DNA from: a virus
DNA: 64,000 nt
Reading direction: 5' to 3' (one strand)
IMG/VR virus record: IMGVR_UViG_3300017987_000001
Location: 124,001-188,000 of that record
How positions within the stretch are numbered: the first letter of the stretch is position 1; each line of letters starts with the position of its first letter. The notes below the pieces were generated by a model. That model saw nothing but the letters and a program-made list of their open reading frames with translations, was not told where the DNA came from and did not search any database. This document shows, piece by piece, positions 3,628-36,677 of this stretch. The translations under genes and the position numbers were made by a program.

Positions 3628-5490
3628 CTAATACTTCGCCCCGGCCATCCCGTCGGGCTTAATCGGAGGCTTCCCGAACTCGGTCGTCTGCGCCAGCGAC
3701 GGAATGAACGATTCGCTGTGCTGCGCAGCTCCGAGGCCACGGTGCACCGATTGTAGCAGATTCTTTTTCAGATGGAAACCACCAAGTCGTACCATCCAAT
3801 CCTCGTTGTACCCCAGCGTCTCCATGGCGCGCACCATCTCCGGGGCGAACATCGGCTCGTCGGAGTGAGCCTTCACGGTCTTGAGTCCGCGCTTGTTGAT
3901 CTCAGCGGCAATGCGCGGCGTGATCTTCGTACCGATGGAGTACTGGAAGATCGGCTCCTCCAAGTACATGCCCACGGCACTCTTCGGTCGCATGGGCTTC
4001 GTACCCGTGCGCGGCTGATACTCGCGTGTGAGCGTGCTGAACTCTACCACATCATCGGGCAGCATGTCGGTGGTTCCGTCGGAGTCGACAATCCGTGCAT
4101 GGTTGATCAATCCGCGCGTCAGCAGCTCGATGTTCCGACGGTTCGCATCGATCTTGGTGGCCTTCAACGTGTTCCGGAAGTTGTTCATGAAGTGCCAGCG
4201 TCCGGCACCGATGCCCTTGTACTTCACAACCTCGGACGGGTTCGGCAAGCCTTCGCTCAATACGTCACCGGCCTCGATCTTGTCGCCGGGCACGACGGTC
4301 GGGTCGAACTCGGGCGCGACGTAGTGCTTCACGCCGCGCACGATAATGAAGTGACCGCCCTGCGGCGCTTTCTCGATGCCCTCGACAGTACCGTCGGTCT
4401 GCGCGATAGCCGCGCCGCCCATGAACGTACGTGGCACCTGAACGAGCTGGTTGATCGCATCGAAGCCGCCAGCGGTAGGACCAGCACCAACGACACCGCC
4501 GGTATGCTTCGAGGAGATAGCTGACTGCGTAATCGGCTCCGAGATAGCCTGTGCCGCTGCAACACCGACGTTGTCACCGATCTCGGGGAGCTTGCCCTTC
4601 TCGCGCACACCGACGCACCGGGCACACACACCATCGCGTGCCTGACACGTGAGCGGGCTGCGCACGATGATCTCTTTACCGTCACGCCCTATGCGCTTGG
4701 CTGCCTTCGTATCGATGATCGTATTCGCTTTGAAGCCCCCAGCGGGAGCTGCAAGGATCGAGCCAACGTTATCCGGGTCATCAGCGTCGACCGGGATGCC
4801 GTTGACCGTACCGCAATCATCCTCAGTGACGAGCAGCCGGTGAGATGCAAGCGCGAGCTGCTTGCCGAGAAAGCCGCCCTTCGGCGTGGCGAACTTGAGG
4901 TCGACCATGCCCTTTCGTGCCCCGTACGAGCCAGCCCAGTACTCGACTGGGTCCAGCCCCTCAGCGTACGAGTTGAGCAACGGGATCGGAACCGGGTTGC
5001 CTTTGTGGTCGGCCACGAGCAGGTCGCCGATGTTCGTCTGACTGAACTGAATCGGGTTGCCGCGTGCGCCGGAGTTGACCTGCATGGCGAGCGCGTTACG
5101 AAGGTCGAGCTGCTCTTGGAAGTTCAGTTTCCTAAGATCGTCGGCGCGCTTGCCGAGAAGTTTTATGACTCGCTCATTCTTTTGCTCATCGGTGAGCGGG
5201 GAGTTCAGAATCCTATTAACGCCACTACGTAGCTCGTCGCGAATCTTCTGTGCCTTCGGCCCTACAGTTAGAGAATCTAGGCTGATGGACGCCTCGCGGC
5301 CGTAGGTGGTAACCACCTCGGCCCCGAGGTCCATCATCTTCTTCGCGATCTCGTTGTACTGCTCCGGGTAGCGCTTCGCCACTTCGCGCAGGACCGTCTT
5401 GATCGTCTTCTTATTGATGGGACGATCGTAGTCCCGCATATCCGGCGGCAGGATGTCGTTGATCAGCAGTTGACCGACTGTAGTCTTCAC
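3628..5490 (-). CDS. DNA-directed RNA polymerase beta' subunit, C-terminal fragment
   Basis: 620 residues homologous to the C-terminal half of bacterial RpoC. Visible landmarks: the SGARG segment (about 140-144); GLDPVEYWAGSYGARKG (178-194), matching the region leading into the bridge helix; a complete second zinc site C226, C282, C289, C292; and AAAQAISEPITQ (311-322), the trigger-loop-adjacent motif. The catalytic NADFDGD is absent here because it lies at the end of the fusion protein at 11427-16925. The start is GTG at 5490, preceded by GGAGG seven bases upstream. It is embedded in structural-type genes, which favours a virion-packaged polymerase. Ends in TAG. The family assignment is very secure; the packaging idea is inference. 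Confidence 0.95.
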   Translation of the reverse strand: MKTTVGQLLINDILPPDMRDYDRPINKKTIKTVLREVAKRYPEQYNEIAKKMMDLGAEVVTTYGREASISLDSLTVGPKAQKIRDELRSGVNRILNSPLTDEQKNERVIKLLGKRADDLRKLNFQEQLDLRNALAMQVNSGARGNPIQFSQTNIGDLLVADHKGNPVPIPLLNSYAEGLDPVEYWAGSYGARKGMVDLKFATPKGGFLGKQLALASHRLLVTEDDCGTVNGIPVDADDPDNVGSILAAPAGGFKANTIIDTKAAKRIGRDGKEIIVRSPLTCQARDGVCARCVGVREKGKLPEIGDNVGVAAAQAISEPITQSAISSKHTGGVVGAGPTAGGFDAINQLVQVPRTFMGGAAIAQTDGTVEGIEKAPQGGHFIIVRGVKHYVAPEFDPTVVPGDKIEAGDVLSEGLPNPSEVVKYKGIGAGRWHFMNNFRNTLKATKIDANRRNIELLTRGLINHARIVDSDGTTDMLPDDVVEFSTLTREYQPRTGTKPMRPKSAVGMYLEEPIFQYSIGTKITPRIAAEINKRGLKTVKAHSDEPMFAPEMVRAMETLGYNEDWMVRLGGFHLKKNLLQSVHRGLGAAQHSESFIPSLAQTTEFGKPPIKPDGMAGAKY

Positions 5491-8630: not shown

Positions 8631-9353
8631 CTACTTGCTCCGAAGGCCCGCGATGATGTCACCGATCTTCTTCGCCGACTTCACCTGCCCGAGTACGTCG
8701 CTCGCCGATGCGATCATCGGGTTCGGCATCTCCGGCAGCGGTTCGGTCGGGGAGAACGGAGGAGCGCCTGCGCCCATCTCCGGCATCATCGCAGCTACCT
8801 CGGGCGGGATCTCGGGGGCCGCGCCAACATCGCCCGGCGCAGCGGGACCGGCGCCCGGACCACCGCCGCCAATCGCCTCTTCAATGGCATCGAGACGCTG
8901 GGAGATCTTGTCGAGCGCCTTCGTCACGTCGGGAGAAGGCTCATTCGGAGCGCCCTCGCCACCGCCGCCCGCGCCACCCATCTCCGTCGCCACCTGCTGG
9001 AACAGCATGACGAGATCTTCGAGCGTCACGGTGATCGGCGTGCCGCCCTGCGCCATGGCCGGATCGGCTGGTGCGCCACCCGCCATCGCCGGATCCATCG
9101 GAGCACCCTGCGCCATCGCCGGGTCCATTGGTGCGCCGCCCGCCATAGCGGGATCCATGGGCGGAGCGCCACCCGCCATCGCCGGGTCCATCGGAGCACC
9201 CTGTGCGGGCGGAGCGCCACCCGCCATCGCCGGGTCCATCGGAGCACCCTGTGCGGGCGGAGCGCCCTGCGGAGGCGGCGCGAATGCATCCTTCTGTGTC
9301 ATGCTGGCAAGCGCTGCGAGCGCTTCCTTCGCCATGTTCGCATCGAAGTCCAT
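8631..9353 (-). CDS. Repeat-containing Ala/Pro/Met/Gly-rich protein
   Basis: 240 residues starting MDFDANMAKEALAALASM at 9353, with GAAAGGA upstream; the extension to 9404 has no ribosome site of its own. Residues of about 30-115 are built from degenerate PMDPAMAGGAP units, and the DNA contains two identical 48-bp copies. The C-terminal half has a helical segment and another Gly/Ala/Pro-rich linker. The composition resembles flexible linkers in capsid decoration or scaffold proteins. Stop is TAG, directly abutting the next ATG in frame. No catalytic motif. Confidence 0.7.
   Translation of the reverse strand: MDFDANMAKEALAALASMTQKDAFAPPPQGAPPAQGAPMDPAMAGGAPPAQGAPMDPAMAGGAPPMDPAMAGGAPMDPAMAQGAPMDPAMAGGAPADPAMAQGGTPITVTLEDLVMLFQQVATEMGGAGGGGEGAPNEPSPDVTKALDKISQRLDAIEEAIGGGGPGAGPAAPGDVGAAPEIPPEVAAMMPEMGAGAPPFSPTEPLPEMPNPMIASASDVLGQVKSAKKIGDIIAGLRSK
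9163..9258 (-). repeat. Two tandem 48-bp direct repeats inside the PMDPAM-repeat gene
   Basis: Units 9163-9210 and 9211-9258 are identical and continue into a partial third copy. Each encodes 16 residues of the PMDPAMAGGAP type. More diverged copies extend leftwards to about 9050. This looks like recent expansion by slippage or unequal recombination in a coding repeat. Confidence 0.85.
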
Positions 9354-14400: not shown

Positions 14401-16925
14401 TCTTTGCCCTTGCGCGCAAGCTCGCCGGGGAATGCGATGATGCTCTTGGCCATCTTGCTGGCGCTGATGCGGCGCGGCTTGCCGGTCTTCGCGTCGAGCA
14501 TGTCAACGTAGATGTTCCCGTCCGAACCCTTGTACGTCCGGTGCGTGATGCGGCTGTCAACACCAATCTTCATGCCTTCGGGCGCACGAATGGGGTCGAT
14601 CACGCCGAAGTGCGACGGCTGCACGGCACGCGCTTCGTCGGGAACAGCGTCGAGACCGGGCATTCCGCCCTCACCCATGCGGGTGACGCGCACGAGCTGG
14701 TCGAAGATCTCAAGCGGGTTCACCTCTTCGAGCGGAGCTGCGAGACCGCTCTTGAGCAGCACAAGTCGAAGCTGCGGCGAGAGCGCGCCCGCCGGGAACT
14801 TCGAGACGTTGCCCTTGTTGGTAGCACGCCACAGCAGCTTACGGGACATGCCGCCAGCGTCACGGGCGATACGCTCGGCGAAGAGATCCTCGGGGCCGAA
14901 CACGCGCTGAAATGCGAGCGAGTCGCGATCGTCCGTATCCGCCTTGCGCTGGTTGATGTCGATGAGCTTCTTCGTGACTTCGGCGATCACTTCGGGCGAC
15001 AGCTTGTCGATCTTGCGGCCAAGCGTCATCTCGGTCGTGTCGGGGTCAACTTCCATCTTCTCGAAGACACCACGCATCTGAAGACCCATGTCATCATCCG
15101 CGCGCTTCTCCATCGCTGCGTCACGCCCCACGAACTGCACGAACGCGCGCTTGATCTCGTCGACCGGCAGCATGGCCTTCAGCTCTTCGAGCGTGGTGAA
15201 GCGGCGCGGAAGCGTCTTCTCCTTCTTCACGGCTTTGAGCTGCTTCTCGACCTTCGCCTGATCGGCCGCCGGGTTGCCCTTGATGTCCTGATTGGCCTGC
15301 TGCTGACGCTCGATCAGCTGCATCGGCTCTTCGTTCTCCATCATCTCTTCGGCGGGCATCGACATGTCGACAACATCGGCGAGCTTCGTCGCCATCGCGC
15401 TCTTGACGAGCGTGTCGGAGATCGCTTCCTCAATCGCGTTCGTCACGGCAAGGAACGCGTTGGCCGTCTTCTCCTCGACGCCGTCGAACAGCGCTGCGAT
15501 CTTCGAAGCGCCACGCGGCTGCTTCTTGGGCTTCACGGCGACGGTGATGTGGAACTGGAACTCCTTGCCGCTGTCATCGCCGCGCGGAAGCTCCTCGAAT
15601 CCGAGCGACTTGCGATGAGCACGCAGCTCGGGCGACTTCGCTTCGAGGAACCATACGCGATCCATCTCATCCCAGCCCTCGGGGTCGAGATCGACGATGG
15701 CGTTCTGCAAACTGAAGGGGAACTTGCGGCCATTACCGCATGCGGTCTTCCACTTCTTGCCGTACTTCCCGATCAGCTGCTTCGCTTCCCAGTTGCGCAG
15801 AACGCTGATGTGCGGGAGATCGAAGCGCGACTCGCAGTCGACGTCCTGATCCTTCAGCGCCTGATACGCAGCCTCGGGCAGTCCCTTGTGGATCTTGAGG
15901 TACGCCCACGGCTTGTCCGAATCCGAATCGTCGCATACCAGCTCGCCGACGAACTTCGCGCGGCGGCGGTTACCTTCCTCGTCCTCCTGCGCAGCCTTGG
16001 CGAACTTGAACTCGCTGCCCACCCAGAGCATGCACCAGCCGGTCGGCGCGACGAAGCCCTGCACCCGGCGGCACGCGTTGACGCCGTTGAAGTTCTTGCA
16101 GCTGGAGCACTGCTGGAAGAATCCCGACATCGTGTAGTTCACGTCGCCCTTGGAGGTCTTGCCGTAGCCGACGTGCTCCTCGGAGTAGCCAAAGAACGCT
16201 GCCTTCTCGGTAGCGTCGGTGTCCTGCTGCTCGGGAGGGGTCTCCTCGGGCTTCTTCGAAACAAGCTTGTGATACGCGCGCTGAACGGCACGCGGGTCGG
16301 ACGCAGCAACGTTCGCCTGCAGCAGGTCCGGTCCCCACGTCTCGTTGAGCTTGCGGTCGTCGTAACCCATCGAGCGAAGGATCGGATAGAGCTTGAGGTT
16401 CGCCTGCCCGACGTTCATGCGGAAGACGCCGGTCTCCGGCTCCATGTAGACCCTGAAGCTGCGCCCCGTGCCACCCTTGACGTTAAAGTGGGCCTCGATG
16501 ATGCCGTTGTCCTTAACTCGACTGTAGATGCCGGGGCGCAGCCTCATTTGGGACGCTACGGTATACTCGTTGCCGTTGAAGACGAACGTACCACGATCGG
16601 TGAGATACGGAACCTGAGCGATGAGCCGTTGGTTAGTCTTGTCGACAATCTTGCCGGATGCGTTATCGACAAGTTCCCACCGACCAGCGAGCTTCCATCC
16701 GAGCGTCTGGCCGCGCATGATCGCCCGCTTCTGCTCGGAGTTGGTGTACTGCTTCGGCTTCACGTACTTCACGTCGTTCAGCCGCAGCGTGTAGCGCTGG
16801 TTCGTCATCGGGAAGCGCTCTTCGATCGCCTTCTGCACGTTCGTGAACAGAAGCTGGCGCGTCGAGCGCACGTCGTCGAACTCACGCATCGTAGGTTCGT
16901 TGGGAGCAGCGATTACGTCGGCCAT
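11427..16925 (-). CDS. RNA polymerase beta subunit fused to the N-terminal half of beta', with inserted HiPIP-like and 2H-like domains
   Basis: 1832 residues. Beta occupies about 1-1365: VPYLTDRGTFVFNGNEYTVA (N-terminal beta); VQPSHFGVIDPIRAPEGMKIG (fork/Rif region); YLPYRGYNADDALVLSESA; and GDKLSNRYGGKGVISKI (about 1155-1170), all standard beta landmarks. Beta' begins near 1370 with GLFD and THWSHIDLAEP-like sequence and includes VPVLPPNFRPI, INRAPVLHRYG and the catalytic NADFDGD at 1741-1747 (D1743, D1745, D1747). The protein ends about 85 residues later, and the remainder of beta' is encoded at 3628-5490. Between the beta N-terminus and fork region are a four-cysteine motif (C273, C276, C285, C298) and two H-x-S/T motifs (H372-I-S, H459-I-T). 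A natural beta-beta' fusion occurs in some bacteria; here it is combined with a split beta'. Start and stop overlap neighbours. Confidence 0.95.
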   Translation of the reverse strand: MADVIAAPNEPTMREFDDVRSTRQLLFTNVQKAIEERFPMTNQRYTLRLNDVKYVKPKQYTNSEQKRAIMRGQTLGWKLAGRWELVDNASGKIVDKTNQRLIAQVPYLTDRGTFVFNGNEYTVASQMRLRPGIYSRVKDNGIIEAHFNVKGGTGRSFRVYMEPETGVFRMNVGQANLKLYPILRSMGYDDRKLNETWGPDLLQANVAASDPRAVQRAYHKLVSKKPEETPPEQQDTDATEKAAFFGYSEEHVGYGKTSKGDVNYTMSGFFQQCSSCKNFNGVNACRRVQGFVAPTGWCMLWVGSEFKFAKAAQEDEEGNRRRAKFVGELVCDDSDSDKPWAYLKIHKGLPEAAYQALKDQDVDCESRFDLPHISVLRNWEAKQLIGKYGKKWKTACGNGRKFPFSLQNAIVDLDPEGWDEMDRVWFLEAKSPELRAHRKSLGFEELPRGDDSGKEFQFHITVAVKPKKQPRGASKIAALFDGVEEKTANAFLAVTNAIEEAISDTLVKSAMATKLADVVDMSMPAEEMMENEEPMQLIERQQQANQDIKGNPAADQAKVEKQLKAVKKEKTLPRRFTTLEELKAMLPVDEIKRAFVQFVGRDAAMEKRADDDMGLQMRGVFEKMEVDPDTTEMTLGRKIDKLSPEVIAEVTKKLIDINQRKADTDDRDSLAFQRVFGPEDLFAERIARDAGGMSRKLLWRATNKGNVSKFPAGALSPQLRLVLLKSGLAAPLEEVNPLEIFDQLVRVTRMGEGGMPGLDAVPDEARAVQPSHFGVIDPIRAPEGMKIGVDSRITHRTYKGSDGNIYVDMLDAKTGKPRRISASKMAKSIIAFPGELARKGKEVRAMIRGKKLAYVKRKDVDFELPHTSHMFTATANMVPMVSAIKGGRLLMGAKMATQALPLRNAEAPLVQNLADDGSGRSFEEIYGDRAGAVRAEGMGSVAEITKDKVVVRYADGEKVSYDLYNNFPFNRKTYLHNTPVVRVGDPVAPGQLLARSNFTDDTGAVASGMNLKVAYLPYRGYNADDALVLSESAAKRLASEHMYTTKYQQSDNQEAGKKSYMSIYPGTFDKQQMSTIDDNGVVKIGTKVKFGDPLVLSISKRKPSGGGMLRARKTLYSDASETWDHESEGVVTDVDKTKEGWKVIVKAYSPMHVGDKLSNRYGGKGVISKIIPDDQMPHDKDGKPFDITLSSLGIVSRINPAQLIETALGKIAKKTGVPYKLPGFMDESYVTLAKKELQKHGMSDTEDIHDPVSGRKIPKVFTGYTYMMKLHHMAEPKLSGRDIGSYTAEGMPAGGGQEGSKRIGVGEMMALISHGATDVIRDAKLVRGQRNDDFWRALRLGYTPASPKVPMIYDKFLSMLQASGINLKKKGEQLHLFAMTDKDIDKMSAGPIKKNDTVTGDAMEPVKGGLFDVGLTGGHGGTRWSHIDLAEPIPNPVMEEPIRRMLGLTQNKLERIIAGRDDLNGERGSKAILSALKRIKVDDAIEHYSSQVREATGAKRDNAVKVLGYLRTLKQAGQKPSDLMLTKVPVLPPNFRPITTFNKTTFVDDPNYLYADLMSVNDDLRELRNDLGDDELGDERLRLYKAYKAVTGLGDPVAAKTQEKQVGGLLRHIFGSSPKLGMYQQKVLGAAVDTVGRGVITPNPSLGMDQVGLPESKAWVLYRPFVMRNLVRRGMGAMAAAKAIENQDQVAYKALLEETGRRPVIINRAPVLHRYGMMAAWPIITKGNTLQIPPIVTPGFNADFDGDAMNFHVPVSKAAVEEAVDKMMPSRNLLAASDFDVHYFPRQEFLHGLYLASTAKDKRVKTFMSKADVLRAYKRGELRVGDSVQFGK

Positions 16926-18017: not shown

Positions 18018-18374
18018 TCAGAACCCTCTCTGCGGGTTGTACACATACAGATCGGCCCACCGCAGGAAGACACGCCAGTTCTTCGTCTCCGGATCGTACT
18101 CCCGGTCCTCAGCAGAGATGACTGCATGCCCGTTGGAGTACATCGTGTAGATGTCCGCCATGCGCTTGCGATCCTTCTCGTCACTCATATCGAGAATCTC
18201 GACGTGAGCACGCACGCCCTGCTTGGGCTGCATATGATCGGGATCGTCGTTCTTCAGGTCGGGCACATGGCCACGGAACGGGAGACCGTCCATGCCCGGA
18301 AGAATCGCGGGCATGTCGCGCTGCCCATTGGATGGATCGATCAGCTTGCCGTCGATATCCCAGCGATCAGCCAT
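18018..18374 (-). CDS. Hypothetical 118-residue protein
   Basis: Soluble acidic protein, MADRWDIDGKLIDPSNGQRD at the start. The ATG overlaps the TGA of the upstream gene by one base. It has a predicted beta-rich middle and an aromatic C-terminus (WRVFLRWADLYVYNPQRGF). No family recognised; virion-associated by operon position. Confidence 0.7.
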   Translation of the reverse strand: MADRWDIDGKLIDPSNGQRDMPAILPGMDGLPFRGHVPDLKNDDPDHMQPKQGVRAHVEILDMSDEKDRKRMADIYTMYSNGHAVISAEDREYDPETKNWRVFLRWADLYVYNPQRGF

Positions 18375-19831
18375 CAGATCTCCACCCCTCCTGCGGTCAT
18401 CGGAAGAATCTTGTTGTGCGCGTCGTCGGGCTGCGTCTCACCCTCTGCCTCGCGCTCCTGCGGCTGATTCTTCTTCGCACGGCGTTCAGCCTGCCGCGTG
18501 AGCCGCTTGTAGAGCGCCATGCGCTCAACGTGCCGCAGCTCTTCCGGATCAAGCGTAGGCTCCCGAGAGAGCGAGTATGCGGCGGTCGAAGCACCGGCAC
18601 CTAGGAGCGGAATGCCTGCAGTGGGGATGAGAAACGTGAGTATGGCGAGGTTCTTCGCCAATCCCCCTCCCTGCCGGATGATCTCCGCGAGTGCACTCGT
18701 TTGCGCCGCCTTCTCCAGCGCGCCATCGAGTTCGCTCGGCCGGATACCCGCCTCGGCGAACTTCTCGTAGAAGCCGTACTTGAACGCATTCTTCTTCAGC
18801 TTCTCGACGTCACGATCCTTGCGCTCCTTGTTCTCCGTGTGCTTCTTCGTTCCTTCGCCGACCGCCTCGATCTTCCCCTCGTCGACAGCGTCTTCCATAC
18901 CCTTTTCGAGATCGTCGAGTCGCGGCTCGTAGTAATCGTCTCCCTCTGTGAGGTGATCTTTCGCAATCTCCTGTGCCACTGCCGGATTGCTCGTGTGCTC
19001 AAGCTCTACTTCGGTGCCCTTCTCGATCTGAGCCTTCGGGAACATCGACGTGGGCATACCGGCGGCGAGTCCGCCGGGAATCACGTCGTCCTTGCCACCA
19101 ACGAGCTTGGCGAGGAGGCGATAGATCTCCTCCTCCGCCTCATGCTCGTCGACGCCGAGTGACTCTGCTTGCTGGTGGAAGCCCTCGTCGTCGATACCCT
19201 GTCCCATCTGCGTGATGTAGTTCACGAGCTGCTGTAGGATCTCGGGCGGCAGCGACTCTTCAGCCTCGTGCTCGGGCGATTCGATCTCGCCTTCCTCGTG
19301 CTCTTCGCTTTCATCCCCGTTGGCACTCTTCACGACGTACTCGACGAAGCTCTGCATCTTCGGCATGCCGCTGATGCCCTGCAGCGCCTGTGCGAGCGAC
19401 GGAGCTGGCTGCGACGGCCCATTGAGGCCAAGCAGATTGCTGGGCGCTTCGGGCGTGCCGGGAGCGGCCGGTCCCATAGCCGACGGGTTGCCGCCCTCTT
19501 CGACGACCTTCTCCTCAGGCGTGCGGTGAAGCCCGGGGTAGCGCAGCTCTTCGATCATGCGCCGCCGACGATCGGCCTTCTCGGCCTCGTTCTTCTGAGC
19601 AATAGCCTGCAGAAGCGGAGCTTTCTCCATAACCGTGCGGAAGTCCTGCCCCTTCAGCGCTTCGAGCGCGTCGATGCCGATGCCCTTCTGATCGAGCTTC
19701 CTCATGCGCTCGGTCATCGTAGGCGTGGGCATGCCGCTCATCGGCTGGACGCCGGGTAGCCCCGGCATACCTGCGCCGATGTTCGCCTGCTTGAGGTGAT
19801 TTTTGAACGCGTCCAACAATCTCTGGGGCAT
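18374..19831 (-). CDS. Hypothetical acidic virion-type protein
   Basis: 485 residues; GGGAG eight bases before the ATG. Residues 20-45 are Met/Pro-rich, 65-120 are charged helix, and 175-330 are strongly Glu/Asp-rich with coiled-coil character. Near 375 is FYEKFAEAGIRPSEL, reminiscent of the short tag-like motif at the N-termini of other proteins in this operon. Residues of about 405-430 are hydrophobic and glycine-rich (LAILTFLIPTAGIPLLGAGA), a likely membrane segment. The 5' codons 4-10 contain interspersed palindrome site 2. No enzyme signature. Confidence 0.72.
   Translation of the reverse strand: MPQRLLDAFKNHLKQANIGAGMPGLPGVQPMSGMPTPTMTERMRKLDQKGIGIDALEALKGQDFRTVMEKAPLLQAIAQKNEAEKADRRRRMIEELRYPGLHRTPEEKVVEEGGNPSAMGPAAPGTPEAPSNLLGLNGPSQPAPSLAQALQGISGMPKMQSFVEYVVKSANGDESEEHEEGEIESPEHEAEESLPPEILQQLVNYITQMGQGIDDEGFHQQAESLGVDEHEAEEEIYRLLAKLVGGKDDVIPGGLAAGMPTSMFPKAQIEKGTEVELEHTSNPAVAQEIAKDHLTEGDDYYEPRLDDLEKGMEDAVDEGKIEAVGEGTKKHTENKERKDRDVEKLKKNAFKYGFYEKFAEAGIRPSELDGALEKAAQTSALAEIIRQGGGLAKNLAILTFLIPTAGIPLLGAGASTAAYSLSREPTLDPEELRHVERMALYKRLTRQAERRAKKNQPQEREAEGETQPDDAHNKILPMTAGGVEI
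19800..19819. repeat. Interspersed palindrome, site 2 of 7
   Basis: TTTTTGAACGCGTCCAACAA, 18 of 20 matches to the consensus. It lies within codons 4-10 of the gene starting at 19831 and is read in a different frame (LLDAFKN) from site 1, so protein conservation does not explain it. Confidence 0.6.
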
Positions 19832-19842
19832 GGGGCTGCTCC

Positions 19843-21816
19843 CTATCGCATGAATGGGCTACCGGGGGACTGCGCTGCGGGCGCTCCCCGGAAGTAGCCC
19901 ATGATACTCGAAATCGTGTCGAGAATGTTGCCCGTATCTCGGATTGACTGCGGCTTCGTGCCGAGCAGCATACTCAGCAGATTCTCTCTGAGACCGAACG
20001 GCTTCGCGGGCGCCGGGCCGCCCATCCAATGCGGCTTCGCCGGAGAGCCGCCGCCCATCCACGCAGGCTTCTGTGGTCCGCCACCGCCGAGCAGCCCACC
20101 AAGGAACGCCTGCTTCAGCAGCCCAGCCGATTCGTGGACCTTGTCCCAATCGACCGAAGCTGCATGCTCGAAAATGGATTGTAGTATCGTGATCTTCCCG
20201 GTCTTGGGGTTCATGTAGATGTCCCCAGCCTCTGGGTTCTCTGGGTCAAGCGGTCCCAATCGAATCGAATCTTCTTCATCGTCATCAAAGCGATGCGCTC
20301 CTGCATCGACTGCGCGTTGATCTTCTTTCCACTGCTCTTCATCCTCGTCGGGTTCCTTCTTAGAGAATGGCCAGAGCGCTTCCTTCAACAGGATGCCTGC
20401 GTAGTCGGATGCTTTCCTCATGTCTGGATAGTCCTCGTGAATGGAGATCAGTCCGGGCGCGCGGTACGCCCCACTCGGGAACTGACCCTGTGCCTTGATC
20501 CGAGCAATCCGACCAAGGAACTCCTCCGGGTTCTTCAGCATTGCCCGCCGAAGATCCTCGGAGAATCCCGTTCCTACTTTACCAACTGCGGGGCCGTCAG
20601 GCGAGAGCGAATACTCGAAGCCGCCCGCTCCGACGCCCTCCAACCGCTTCTCGCCGGGGAAGATGTCCTTCACGAACACGTCGTGCTCGTCGTACAGCTT
20701 GACCTTCGCGGGCTTGCCGCCCTTCTTCGGCCACGCTACAATGCCCTCATGAGTAAGCGGATCACGCCCACCCTTGACATCCTCCCACAGAGCACGCTGT
20801 TCTTCCGGGGTCTCGGCCATTCGTGGGAGATGGAACTTGCCTTCAGGCAGATGCTTGAGGATTTCGCGGACCTTATCAAGGCGCTCGGCAATCGGGACGT
20901 CCATGCCGATGGGCTTCTTGCCGTACTTCAGGATATTGAAGATTGCATTGCGGAGCTGAACGCCCTGCTCGCGCTGCTTCTTCAGCGATTTGCGCGTCGA
21001 GGAGTTAAGAATCCCACCCAGTTCTTGGGGAGGGATGGCACGATCATCACGCGTACCGTAGAGTTCCCCACGGAGAATTGATCCCACGAGATGCTTGGGG
21101 ATGTTGAGGCCAGTAGTTCCTCCAACTCGGTAGGTGTGGACAATAGGTCGGCCAGTCGTTGTCGGCCGGTATGAGAGAACATCGATCTTATCCGAGAATA
21201 GCTTGTAGAGGGCTGCTGCTCCATCGATCTTCTCCATGTGGAGGTACTTCTCGTCGAAGAGCTTCTCCACGTCCTCGGCCGGAACCTTGGCGTACCGAAC
21301 CTTCTTGTGCTTGATGACCTCCGTGGGCGTCGTGTTGATCATCAGCCACGAGCCGCCCTGCGTCTTCTTCGTACGCGGCGAGCCGCCGGTGGGCGGTCCG
21401 CTCTTGCGTATCATCGTGTACATCTCTGGGTGCTTCTTGTGCGTGACCACGAAGTTGATCTTGTTCGGCTCGACCTTCGTGACCAGCACCGTGCCTTTGT
21501 CGTGCGTCTTCACCAGCCCCTTGCCGTAGCCCGACGTTATTTCGCCCTCGAAATTCGCGTAGGCTCCGGTGTGAAGCGGTTGTTGGAATGCTAAAACTTT
21601 CTGCCCCGACTCCTCGGGGAGTTTGCGTGATGCCCAACTGAGAAGTGATGGCTTGCCGCCTAGGTTTGGTCCGAACCGAATATCGTAGTGCGGCCCAGCT
21701 CGGTCAGCTAGGTGGCGCTGGATCACATACAGAAGCTCACGGCCCTTCGGGAGATCCGTAACGCTCCCGAAGCGCCGTGGGTCTGGTAGGCCCGGCGCGA
21801 ACTCAGTCTTGGCCAC
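19843..21816 (-). CDS. LigD-like 3'-phosphoesterase plus ATP-dependent DNA ligase, with virion-type C-terminal tail
   Basis: 657 residues, GTG start at 21816 after AGGAG. Residues 28-115 match the LigD phosphoesterase (PE) fold: YVIQRHLADRAGPHYDIRFG, LLSWASRK and NFEGEITSGYGKG, with candidate metal ligands H35, H43, D45 and E90. Residues of about 185-400 are the nucleotidyltransferase: motif I E195-K196-I-D-G (K196 would be adenylated), motif III LRGELYG (248-254), motif IV HEGIV (356-360), motif V KVKLYDEHDVFVKD (371-384). After residue 440 comes a Gly/Pro/Trp-rich tail with GGG-S-P repeats like the surrounding virion-type proteins. LigD ligases normally act in end joining and nick sealing. 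Placement among structural genes suggests use in or from the particle; inference. Confidence 0.88.
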   Translation of the reverse strand: MAKTEFAPGLPDPRRFGSVTDLPKGRELLYVIQRHLADRAGPHYDIRFGPNLGGKPSLLSWASRKLPEESGQKVLAFQQPLHTGAYANFEGEITSGYGKGLVKTHDKGTVLVTKVEPNKINFVVTHKKHPEMYTMIRKSGPPTGGSPRTKKTQGGSWLMINTTPTEVIKHKKVRYAKVPAEDVEKLFDEKYLHMEKIDGAAALYKLFSDKIDVLSYRPTTTGRPIVHTYRVGGTTGLNIPKHLVGSILRGELYGTRDDRAIPPQELGGILNSSTRKSLKKQREQGVQLRNAIFNILKYGKKPIGMDVPIAERLDKVREILKHLPEGKFHLPRMAETPEEQRALWEDVKGGRDPLTHEGIVAWPKKGGKPAKVKLYDEHDVFVKDIFPGEKRLEGVGAGGFEYSLSPDGPAVGKVGTGFSEDLRRAMLKNPEEFLGRIARIKAQGQFPSGAYRAPGLISIHEDYPDMRKASDYAGILLKEALWPFSKKEPDEDEEQWKEDQRAVDAGAHRFDDDEEDSIRLGPLDPENPEAGDIYMNPKTGKITILQSIFEHAASVDWDKVHESAGLLKQAFLGGLLGGGGPQKPAWMGGGSPAKPHWMGGPAPAKPFGLRENLLSMLLGTKPQSIRDTGNILDTISSIMGYFRGAPAAQSPGSPFMR

Positions 21817-33902: not shown

Positions 33903-36677
33903 TCAGCCAGTCTGTGCGCCGGTCATCTGTTGTAGTGCTTGGAACCCTCCCTCAAGCTTCGCCTGATCCCTTGTCTCGTCCATCTTCTGGATAACGAGCG
34001 CGTGAAGCGTCTGATCGGACTTCTTGAGGTCCGTGAGCTGCGACTTGCGGATCTCGTACGGCATACCAAGCATCTGCATCGCAATCTGCTCAGCCTGCGA
34101 TTGCATATCGTCGGGTGTCGTTCCACCCGCCGGAGAGGGCTGTCCAGCAGGAGCAGCGCCTGCGGGAGCGCCACCAGCAGGAGCGGGCTGACCGGGCATC
34201 TGCGGCTGGTCTGCGGCAGCGAAGATCTGCTCGAACTCCTGCTGCTTCGCCTGATCCTCCTGAAACTTCTTGCTCTCGTCGGCGAACTGCTTCTCTTCCT
34301 CGAACATCCGCCGTATTTCCTCGCGCCAGTCGATTCCATACGGTGCGAAGGCAGTCTGCTTCGAGATCTGCTGCGAGGCGGCGAGCTGAAGCTGGATCTG
34401 CTTCTTCTCGATGTCCTCGGCGAGCGTCGTCGGCTGGAGGCGTCCGCTGATCTTCTCCCAGTTCATCAGGTCGGTAATCGCCTCGAAGAACCAGTTGACC
34501 CACCCGTTCATGGCGGAGACGAAATGCGTCCACGTGCGCTCAAACAGACGCAGCGCCATCGGAGCTGCCTGCACCTGCAGCGTGCCACGGTACATCTCAG
34601 CCGGAACGCCCATAGCATTGAGGAACTCGTCCATGCCTGCATTGATGAGGTCAACGGGAGCGAGATCCTGCCCCTCGCCACCAAGAGCGCGGTAGTCGAT
34701 GGGGAACGGGAGTGCATTCCACTGAGTCGGATCCTTGCGATGCTTGCGAATCATGCCCATCACGCGGCCCATGAACGAACCAGCATTGACGTGATACAGC
34801 GGGTCGACCTCGCCAGTGCCCGAGCCCTTGCCCGGCGTGATGATGCGGAATGGAATGATGTAGTCGAGACCGATGGCCTCGTTGTAGCGCTTGAGCACCT
34901 GCACGTACCACGCCTGCTTGAAGTTGGCGAGGATGCGCGGAATGCCCCATCCGGCATTACGCAAACCGGCGACGCACTCCTCTTTGAAGTGGTAGATGAT
35001 GCCCTTGTTGAACTGGAACCACTTGTCGGTGCGCAAGCACTCGACTATTTCCCACGGCGTCGACTCAAGGTAGAACGGGTTGCCCTTGCGGACCTCTCGC
35101 TTGATGTCCGAAGGCGGGATCCAATAGTACGCAGTCTCGTGAGAAATTGGGTGGTGCTGGAGACGGACCTCGTGGGGCGACCATCGAATGATTCGTGGCT
35201 TATCCTCTTCCACGGAACGGCGATCGACACGTTCGAATACTCCCGTCCACCCACACTGTGGACACGTCGCGTTGAACTGCCAGTTCTCAAAGGAGTATTC
35301 CATCCGACCGAGCGTGCGTTCGTGGAAACACTTACGACAGCGAAGATATCGGCGGAATGGAATGTGTACGGAAGTGAATGAATTACCGTAGCACTGCTTC
35401 GTCAGAATGCCGTTATCGATAACGAACGTATGCGTCTCCATCTCGACACAGCAGAATACCTCGTCAACAATACCTGTTCCGCGTACTTCCTTGACTCCGA
35501 TATACTGACCATAGTTCGTGGGCTTGTAGTTCTCCTCGAACTTGGCTCTATGCGCTGGGATCAGGAAGTCTTGCGGCAACATCGACTGCTTAAGCAACGT
35601 GACGTAATAAATGTCACTGTCGTATACGTCGACGTGTCCGTCATCACGAACAAACTCCGCCGTACGCCGCTGACTTCGGACAGGACCAGCGGACATACCG
35701 ATACGAGGAAGCTGTCGAACAATTGCCTCCAACGTAGCGGAGGATGCCTGCGTCAGCATCGCACAACCGTGCGTGTCCACAGTACCATCAGCAGACAGGA
35801 AGCCGCATACGAAGCCGTACCAATACTCCGCACTCATGTCATTCGACGGGAGCGCCTTGTAGTGCGGCGGCAGACCAAACATCTCGACTTTTCCAGAGTC
35901 CGGCGTGTAGTCGTCTACATCCCAGTACGCCAGCATGACCGCGTCCTTCTCCCCGAAGAACGTAGCCTTTGCCTGCTTGCCCTTGTTGTACAGTGAGCCG
36001 TCACCAAACGTGAAGCCGTGGCGAACGCCTTCCTTGAAGTCATCACCCCGCTCGGGGCGAGGAGCTACGACTCTGGGGATCCTGTATCCCTTCCGCAGTT
36101 CAGCTGTAGAAACTTCAACCTCTTTGTCAGAGCAGTTCTTGGCGATCCACCGATGCTCGGGCGTAGCCAGCACGGTGCGGCCGTCGCTAAACTCAACTTC
36201 GAGAAGTTCTTGATGACCAAAGGACTTGAACTCTGCGGGGCGATACACGCCATCTTTCGATAGCACGTCAACAGTCTTACCCACAAGCTCGCGAAGCTTG
36301 AAGACGCCACCGCGCGTGACCGCTTCAGTGTCGCCGTGGAAACACATGTAATCGTCGCCAATAGTAGCGAGCACGTCGAGGATCTTGATCTGCTTATTTA
36401 GGAAGTCTTCGTACTTCTCCTTCTCGTCATCCGATGCATCCTGCAGTTCGATCTTCGTCAGGAAGTAGCGAACGACACGCTGCGCAGCCATGCGAAACGT
36501 GCCGTTGGTTACCCACAGATACTCACACCAGCGCATGACGTCGTAGAGCGAGCGCGGCATCTGTGTGGATGCGTAGTCAAAGAACGGGTCGGGGAATGCT
36601 TGAGAATACCGGTTCGCCGTACTGTTGGCTGAACCGACACCGGTCGTTGGGAACATCGGGAAGACAGCTTCGGCCAT
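33903..36677 (-). CDS. Phage portal protein, interrupted by an intein
   Basis: 924 codons; the mature protein after splicing would be 607 residues. The N-terminal block (about 25-110) and the segment after the intein (YGNSFTSVHIPF and onward) read as a portal: PYGIDWREEIRRMFEEEK, AEDIEKKQIQLQLAASQQI, MDEFLNAMGVPAEMYRGTLQ. Portal proteins form the dodecameric ring at the capsid vertex through which DNA passes. C447-x2-C450 and C472-x2-C475 form a zinc-ribbon-like insertion just after the intein. The C-terminus is Ala/Pro/Gly-rich and then helical. AGAGG precedes the ATG. The portal call rests on motif-level resemblance. Confidence 0.8.
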   Translation of the reverse strand: MAEAVFPMFPTTGVGSANSTANRYSQAFPDPFFDYASTQMPRSLYDVMRWCEYLWVTNGTFRMAAQRVVRYFLTKIELQDASDDEKEKYEDFLNKQIKILDVLATIGDDYMCFHGDTEAVTRGGVFKLRELVGKTVDVLSKDGVYRPAEFKSFGHQELLEVEFSDGRTVLATPEHRWIAKNCSDKEVEVSTAELRKGYRIPRVVAPRPERGDDFKEGVRHGFTFGDGSLYNKGKQAKATFFGEKDAVMLAYWDVDDYTPDSGKVEMFGLPPHYKALPSNDMSAEYWYGFVCGFLSADGTVDTHGCAMLTQASSATLEAIVRQLPRIGMSAGPVRSQRRTAEFVRDDGHVDVYDSDIYYVTLLKQSMLPQDFLIPAHRAKFEENYKPTNYGQYIGVKEVRGTGIVDEVFCCVEMETHTFVIDNGILTKQCYGNSFTSVHIPFRRYLRCRKCFHERTLGRMEYSFENWQFNATCPQCGWTGVFERVDRRSVEEDKPRIIRWSPHEVRLQHHPISHETAYYWIPPSDIKREVRKGNPFYLESTPWEIVECLRTDKWFQFNKGIIYHFKEECVAGLRNAGWGIPRILANFKQAWYVQVLKRYNEAIGLDYIIPFRIITPGKGSGTGEVDPLYHVNAGSFMGRVMGMIRKHRKDPTQWNALPFPIDYRALGGEGQDLAPVDLINAGMDEFLNAMGVPAEMYRGTLQVQAAPMALRLFERTWTHFVSAMNGWVNWFFEAITDLMNWEKISGRLQPTTLAEDIEKKQIQLQLAASQQISKQTAFAPYGIDWREEIRRMFEEEKQFADESKKFQEDQAKQQEFEQIFAAADQPQMPGQPAPAGGAPAGAAPAGQPSPAGGTTPDDMQSQAEQIAMQMLGMPYEIRKSQLTDLKKSDQTLHALVIQKMDETRDQAKLEGGFQALQQMTGAQTG
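35394..36344 (-). mobile_element. Intein with LAGLIDADG-type homing endonuclease, in the portal gene
   Basis: Residues 112-428 (317 aa). It begins C112-F-H-G-D-T (block A); LATPEHRW gives the block B T-x-x-H. Two LAGLIDADG-like helices, GFTFGDGSLYN and YGFVCGFLSADGT, mark a DOD endonuclease. Block F/G is VEMETHTFVIDNGILTKQ followed by C429 as the +1 residue. The usual penultimate His is Lys and the last residue is Gln instead of Asn, both known natural variants. The extein junction DDYM/CYGNSF reads smoothly across when the intein is removed. Confidence 0.9.

Follow-up and report, generated by a model that had tools for sequence, protein, structure and literature searches.

A HiPIP-like domain and a predicted 2H phosphodiesterase inserted in the beta lobe of a giant phage RNA polymerase

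Results

A fused RNA polymerase polypeptide in a giant phage genome

The window analysed here is a 64,000-nucleotide stretch of an IMG/VR virus record of 207,857 bases (a phage of ~208 kb). Its minus strand encodes P0001 (11427..16925), an 1832-aa polypeptide that Pfam and PDB comparisons identified as a fusion of RNA polymerase beta with the N-terminal portion of beta'. The Pfam matches were to Rpb2_6 (6e-58), Rpb2_3, Rpb1_1 and Rpb1_2, and matches to RNA polymerases in the PDB reached 3e-69. The NADFDGD and VGDKLSNRYGGKG motifs are intact, as is GDK..GGKG, and both the catalytic NADFDGD and the active-site Lys region GDK...GKG are invariant in the alignment with relatives, placing P0001 among these polymerases. 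The beta' portion stops past the DFDGD region, and the C-terminal part of beta' has its own gene (3628..5490, minus strand; 620 aa; Pfam Rpb1_5, 7.6e-23). The carrier of the features described below is the beta subunit of a multisubunit RNA polymerase of a jumbo, or giant, bacteriophage, and its gene is a single open frame from end to end. A 657-aa phage protein combining a LigD 3'-phosphoesterase domain with an ATP-dependent-DNA-ligase-like region is encoded 2.9 kb upstream of beta (19843-21816, minus strand).

An inserted block in the beta lobe

A block of ~380 residues (about 235-610; 15096..16223, minus strand) was delimited in a loop of the beta lobe by its absence from relatives, the spacing of the flanking blocks and profile alignment. 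It is cleanly missing from the polymerases of two related loci, L001 (48% identical) and L002 (46%), and from those of Salmonella phage Arash and Vibrio phage D69 (33-34%). The gap between the flanking beta HMM blocks was 398 aa in the window, 385 aa in the related virus L022, 340 aa in L085 and 108 aa in L084, compared with 13-26 aa in the other loci scanned; the scan gave 80 loci, near-duplicates included, of which 69 distinct rows (~70 distinct relatives) entered the polymerase tree. By the same measure Salmonella beta, which has a lobe insertion of its own, gave 149 aa. When a profile of the insert-free relatives was aligned with a cyanobacterial beta (8syi_C), the site corresponded to the loop KLRPGEPPT of the bacterial beta lobe. 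The four polymerases with an insert group as a single clade (support 98/95); as judged from these sequences, its members have a hot spot for insertions in the lobe loop. The 108-aa insert of L084 (frame from locus base 8992, residues ~260-367) has a zinc-finger-like C-x2-C...H-x-H-x2-C pattern, and no 2H domain was found in that 192-kb phage record.

The sequence-only reading had placed a foreign region at residues 260-475. Its location was right, but its extent was underestimated: the block also includes a helical tail after the 2H domain (about residues 486-615; 15081..15470, minus strand; AlphaFold2 (AF2) helices, pLDDT about 50-72), through which the chain rejoins beta. The proposal that these residues are inserted domains largely holds, given the relatives that lack the block, the profile matches to HiPIP-like and 2H families and the 2H-dominated Foldseek matches described below. 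Relatives of the insert were not found among isolate phages.

A HiPIP-like four-cysteine domain

The first part of the insert (residues 256-310; 15996..16160, minus strand) contains Y264, C273, C276, C285 and C298 and the stretch G-W-C-M-L-W. A script confirmed the C-x2-C-x8-C-x12-C spacing with G-W-C that had been likened to [4Fe-4S] HiPIP proteins, and the domain has the HiPIP four-cysteine pattern C-x2-C...C...G-[WYF]-C together with the conserved Tyr. The whole of P0001 has seven cysteines (273, 276, 285, 298, 331, 364 and 396), every one of them in the insert. The signature C-x6-9-[LIVM]-x3-G-[YW]-C-x2-[FYW], which we take to be the PROSITE pattern for HiPIP-like proteins, was found only in the window and L022 when 476 kb were searched in six frames, and in none of 20,000 shuffles of P0001.

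Profile searches bore out the proposed HiPIP relationship in part. NCBIfam NF041615 (HiPIP-type iron oxidase Iro) matched the window with an E-value of 1.7e-6, but the score of 28.3 bits is below the equivalog cut-off of 100 bits, and Pfam PF01355 (HIPIP) scored 8.5 bits against a cut-off of 22. A homologous 157-aa protein of phage G004 (L046) scored 25.0 bits, above the PF01355 cut-off. Because the window itself falls below the curated cut-offs, we call the domain HiPIP-like rather than HiPIP. When the window, L022 and G004 sequences were combined into a profile, the best PDB match was the HiPIP PioC of Rhodopseudomonas palustris (6xyv; E 6.8e-7), followed by the HiPIPs 3h31 and 1hlq; the window sequence alone matched PioC at 1.2e-4, a level that a collagen fusion reaches solely from summed weak stretches. 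PioC has the identical C-x2-C-x8-C-x12-C spacing, an aligned Tyr and G-W-C-x-L-[W/Y]. However, PioC is a free electron carrier, whereas the domain described here is a polymerase insert known from sequence. In plasmids, tblastn matched the insert weakly, and most of these matches were to annotated high-potential iron-sulfur proteins. The cysteine region also had a weak match to NRDD (0.03-0.05); the HiPIP matches were far stronger. AF2 modelled the HiPIP-like part at pLDDT <50, and at 47 by itself.

Across the phage proteins compared, HiPIP-like modules recur by sequence. A second HiPIP-like stretch of phage G004 lies at the N-terminus of a 580-aa frame (L060:1498-1683, minus strand), with W-W-C replacing G-W-C.

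A 2H phosphoesterase-like domain

Residues 321-470 (15516..15965, minus strand) form a 2H phosphoesterase-like domain, recognized by PF22547, AF2 modelling, fold search and alignment. Its two motifs, H372-I-S and H459-I-T, lie 87 residues apart in the contexts RFDLPHIS and FQFHIT, as originally noted, and are the only H-x-S/T within the first 640 residues of P0001; a pair of H-x-[ST] motifs separated by about 80-90 residues characterizes the 2H superfamily. The suggested 2H membership was supported by Pfam 2H-SAK (PF22547), which matched the window domain at 25.0 bits (E 2.4e-5; cut-off 27 bits), exceeded its cut-off for the in-beta copy of L085 (30.8 bits) and for L013 (40.1) and L023 (38.2), and matched all 13 aligned homologues. 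Across those 13 members, neither the His of the first motif nor the F-H of the second varies.

The AF2 model of the 2H stretch had block-mean pLDDT values of 72-97, and its fold agreed with the proposal: the first 17 PDB matches in Foldseek were all 2H enzymes, with weak E-values. The best was Usb1 (E 5.5e-3, prob 0.98), and later matches included drCPDase, a penguinpox (poxvirus) cGAMP PDE, a Burkholderia phage PDE and Acb1 (7t27). The weak E-values are probably due in part to disordered flanks in the model. Fold matches in BFVD included annotated Acb1 and 2'-5' RNA ligase family proteins. A search of 84,980 cellular genomes with one peptide pattern, which is not proof of absence, found no relative of this 2H.

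By profile, the insert shares its Pfam family (PF22547) with the 2H domains found in polyvalent proteins of phages (PMC5512222), but those are free or fused to MuF or portal domains, whereas the window 2H lies within an RNA polymerase. Acb1 (PMC9117128) is likewise phage-borne, with a 2H fold and paired motifs (HxT in Acb1); unlike the insert it stands alone, and the fold similarity is distant (11-16% identity).

Conservation and origin of the insert

L022, a 5,242-base contig from an independent virus, has the same insert at the same site and keeps all seven cysteines, H372 and H459, so the motifs are not due to chance. Identity between the window and L022 was 0.76 in the beta N-terminal part, 0.59 in the HiPIP-like domain, 0.79 in the 2H domain, 0.53 in the tail and 0.75 in the beta core; dS was saturated. 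L085 carries the 2H domain in beta without the HiPIP-like domain, and a different, unassigned domain of ~120 aa precedes it (frame from locus base 8953, residues ~233-572). None of the three in-beta copies has lost either HxS/T motif.

This 2H was found exactly once in 17 of 20 near relatives, as a separate gene in 15 and inside beta in two (the window and the genome of L085). Where measured, the separate genes lie roughly 4-19 kb upstream of beta. The other three (G022, G024 and G027) yielded no 2H, some records being incomplete so that absence is not proven. The free 2H of G001 has lost both motifs (N-I-A and H-I-L). With three relatives showing no 2H and the motifs of G001 decayed, 2H activity is not retained by every relative. 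The single copy per genome suggests, at the level of gene content, that the function is retained while its carrier changes.

Upstream of beta in the window lies a DUF5661-containing protein without a 2H domain (18374..19831, minus strand; PF18905 1.6e-5, just below the cut-off). In several relatives a 2H is followed by a DUF5661-like stretch in one polypeptide, and the window protein matched those of L152, L156, L066 and others in tblastn (35-51% over 53-103 aa). We therefore considered that a neighbouring 2H gene may have jumped into beta, a scenario favoured by the single copy per genome and by the DUF5661 neighbour without 2H. In the 2H tree, however, the in-beta copies (L085 and L022, the latter also standing for the window) group with the free 2H of G004 (99/97) and apart from the neighbouring-gene clade (96/96). 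Because of this placement, acquisition of a horizontally transferred 2H that replaced the resident gene, then lost, appears at least as likely as relocation by a simple jump of the neighbouring gene. The G004 genome has free HiPIP-like genes in addition to its free 2H.

Discussion

The window beta is, on the sequence comparisons, a real, conserved and unusual composite phage RNA polymerase. We propose, with a probability of about 0.5, that two phage modules have been transplanted into its lobe loop, namely a HiPIP-like Cys4 domain and a 2H-SAK phosphodiesterase, the latter a predicted signal-degrading enzyme riding on the polymerase. The identity of the two modules is the firmest part and very probably correct; like the insertion at an otherwise short linker, the conservation in a second virus and the occurrence of the 2H once per genome in near relatives, it is read directly from the sequences. 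Because related phages have the same arrangement, the polymerase may carry a second activity, probably defence-countering or RNA-processing.

In the proposed mechanism, the 2H domain would be a catalytically active, metal-independent phosphodiesterase that cleaves cyclic or 2'-5'/2'-3' nucleotide linkages while riding on the phage polymerase. Its target would most likely be defence signals, by analogy with Acb1, a phage enzyme with an HxT/HxT active-site tetrad that defeats CBASS (PMC9117128), or alternatively 2',3'-cyclic RNA ends. The polymerase would act as a carrier, and a good one if it enters with the phage genome or is made early from it. The HiPIP-like domain beside the 2H likely holds a [4Fe-4S] cluster and could be a structural or a redox-sensitive or redox-sensing module. 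That the 2H serves to degrade defence nucleotide signals is tentative, at somewhat less than even odds, and the fullest version, in which a built-in active phosphodiesterase destroying defence signals (or processing RNA) would be controlled by an adjacent redox-active [4Fe-4S] HiPIP-like domain, is improbable as a whole.

The insert could instead be an RNA-processing module, its 2H trimming or opening the 3' ends or 2',3'-cyclic phosphates of the transcript or of cleaved host RNA in cis with transcription, in the manner of Usb1 or CPDases. We find this rather doubtful. The top Foldseek match is the 3'-end exonuclease Usb1, with drCPDase next, and the LigD 3'-phosphoesterase and ligase-like gene lies close upstream; however, the insert sits in the lobe, away from the RNA exit, and in most near relatives the 2H is a separate protein. 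The lobe of an RNA polymerase is on the side of the downstream DNA. No match to an RNA ligase or to KptA was found in the source record. Iyer et al. proposed that the 2H domains of polyvalent proteins, which were not found with RNA ligases, are Usb1-like RNases or degraders of defence nucleotides (PMC5512222), and by the same argument the missing RNA ligase and KptA favour an RNase or signal-degrading role over RNA repair here.

It is unlikely that the insert is structural only, that is, a degenerate 2H fold with a Zn- or Fe-S-stabilized knob that would catalyse nothing but provide a surface on which DNA or a phage factor docks, or which is used in virion packaging. Unrelated inserts are tolerated at the site, namely the zinc-finger-like insert of L084 and the different N-terminal part of L085, lineage-specific insertions are known in bacterial beta (PMC11515920), and the free 2H of G001 has lost its motifs. 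Nevertheless, the HxS/T pair is intact in the in-beta copies of the window, L022 and L085, and the 2H is conserved like the polymerase core (0.79 versus 0.75), which the tail (0.53) is not. Although the records are metagenome assemblies, an artificial joining of two genes, through chimeric assembly or a frame artefact, is ruled out by the same insert and site in the independent, 75-79% identical virus L022, and is further contradicted by the 2H at this site in a third virus (L085) and by the one open frame throughout P0001.

The nearest precedent is the AR9-type virion RNA polymerase, in which an HD phosphohydrolase-type domain, of unknown role, is fused to the beta polypeptide (PMC7598289; PMC7824862); there an HD fold is joined to a split beta, whereas here a 2H and a HiPIP-like domain lie in the lobe of a beta/beta' fusion with a canonical sequence. 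The BEAN and HABAS insertions of bacterial beta and beta' likewise arose repeatedly at preferred places, but their folds differ from those of the window insert, and the text describing them does not mention phage RNA polymerases, phosphoesterases or iron-sulfur domains (PMC11515920). Among open-licence papers, whose silence is weak evidence, nothing relevant was found on a 2H in a phage RNA polymerase lobe or on HiPIP in phage genomes. Few enzymes are as conserved as RNA polymerase, and lobe inserts with enzyme folds were not found described in the literature searched. If active, the 2H would endow a phage transcription enzyme with a counter-defence or RNA-processing activity of its own; the HiPIP-like domain, if correctly read, would be an Fe-S-type module within a phage polymerase. 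The relatives with separate genes and those with in-polymerase copies offer a natural comparison for why a polymerase would carry the 2H.

2H-SAK domains fused to a SET-domain-like region were observed in phage proteins near the polymerase in L029 (L029:7743-10955; Pfam SET 8e-11) and L155. A 924-aa protein of the window (33903-36677, minus strand) has a weak match to an intein-splicing domain (7.8e-5). An intein-like sequence that matches LAGLIDADG interrupts beta in L022 (L022:3836-4900), at VGDKL|C...N|SNRFGGKG, and the beta frames of the relatives G008 and G009 are enlarged to 2343-2511 aa, probably via inteins.
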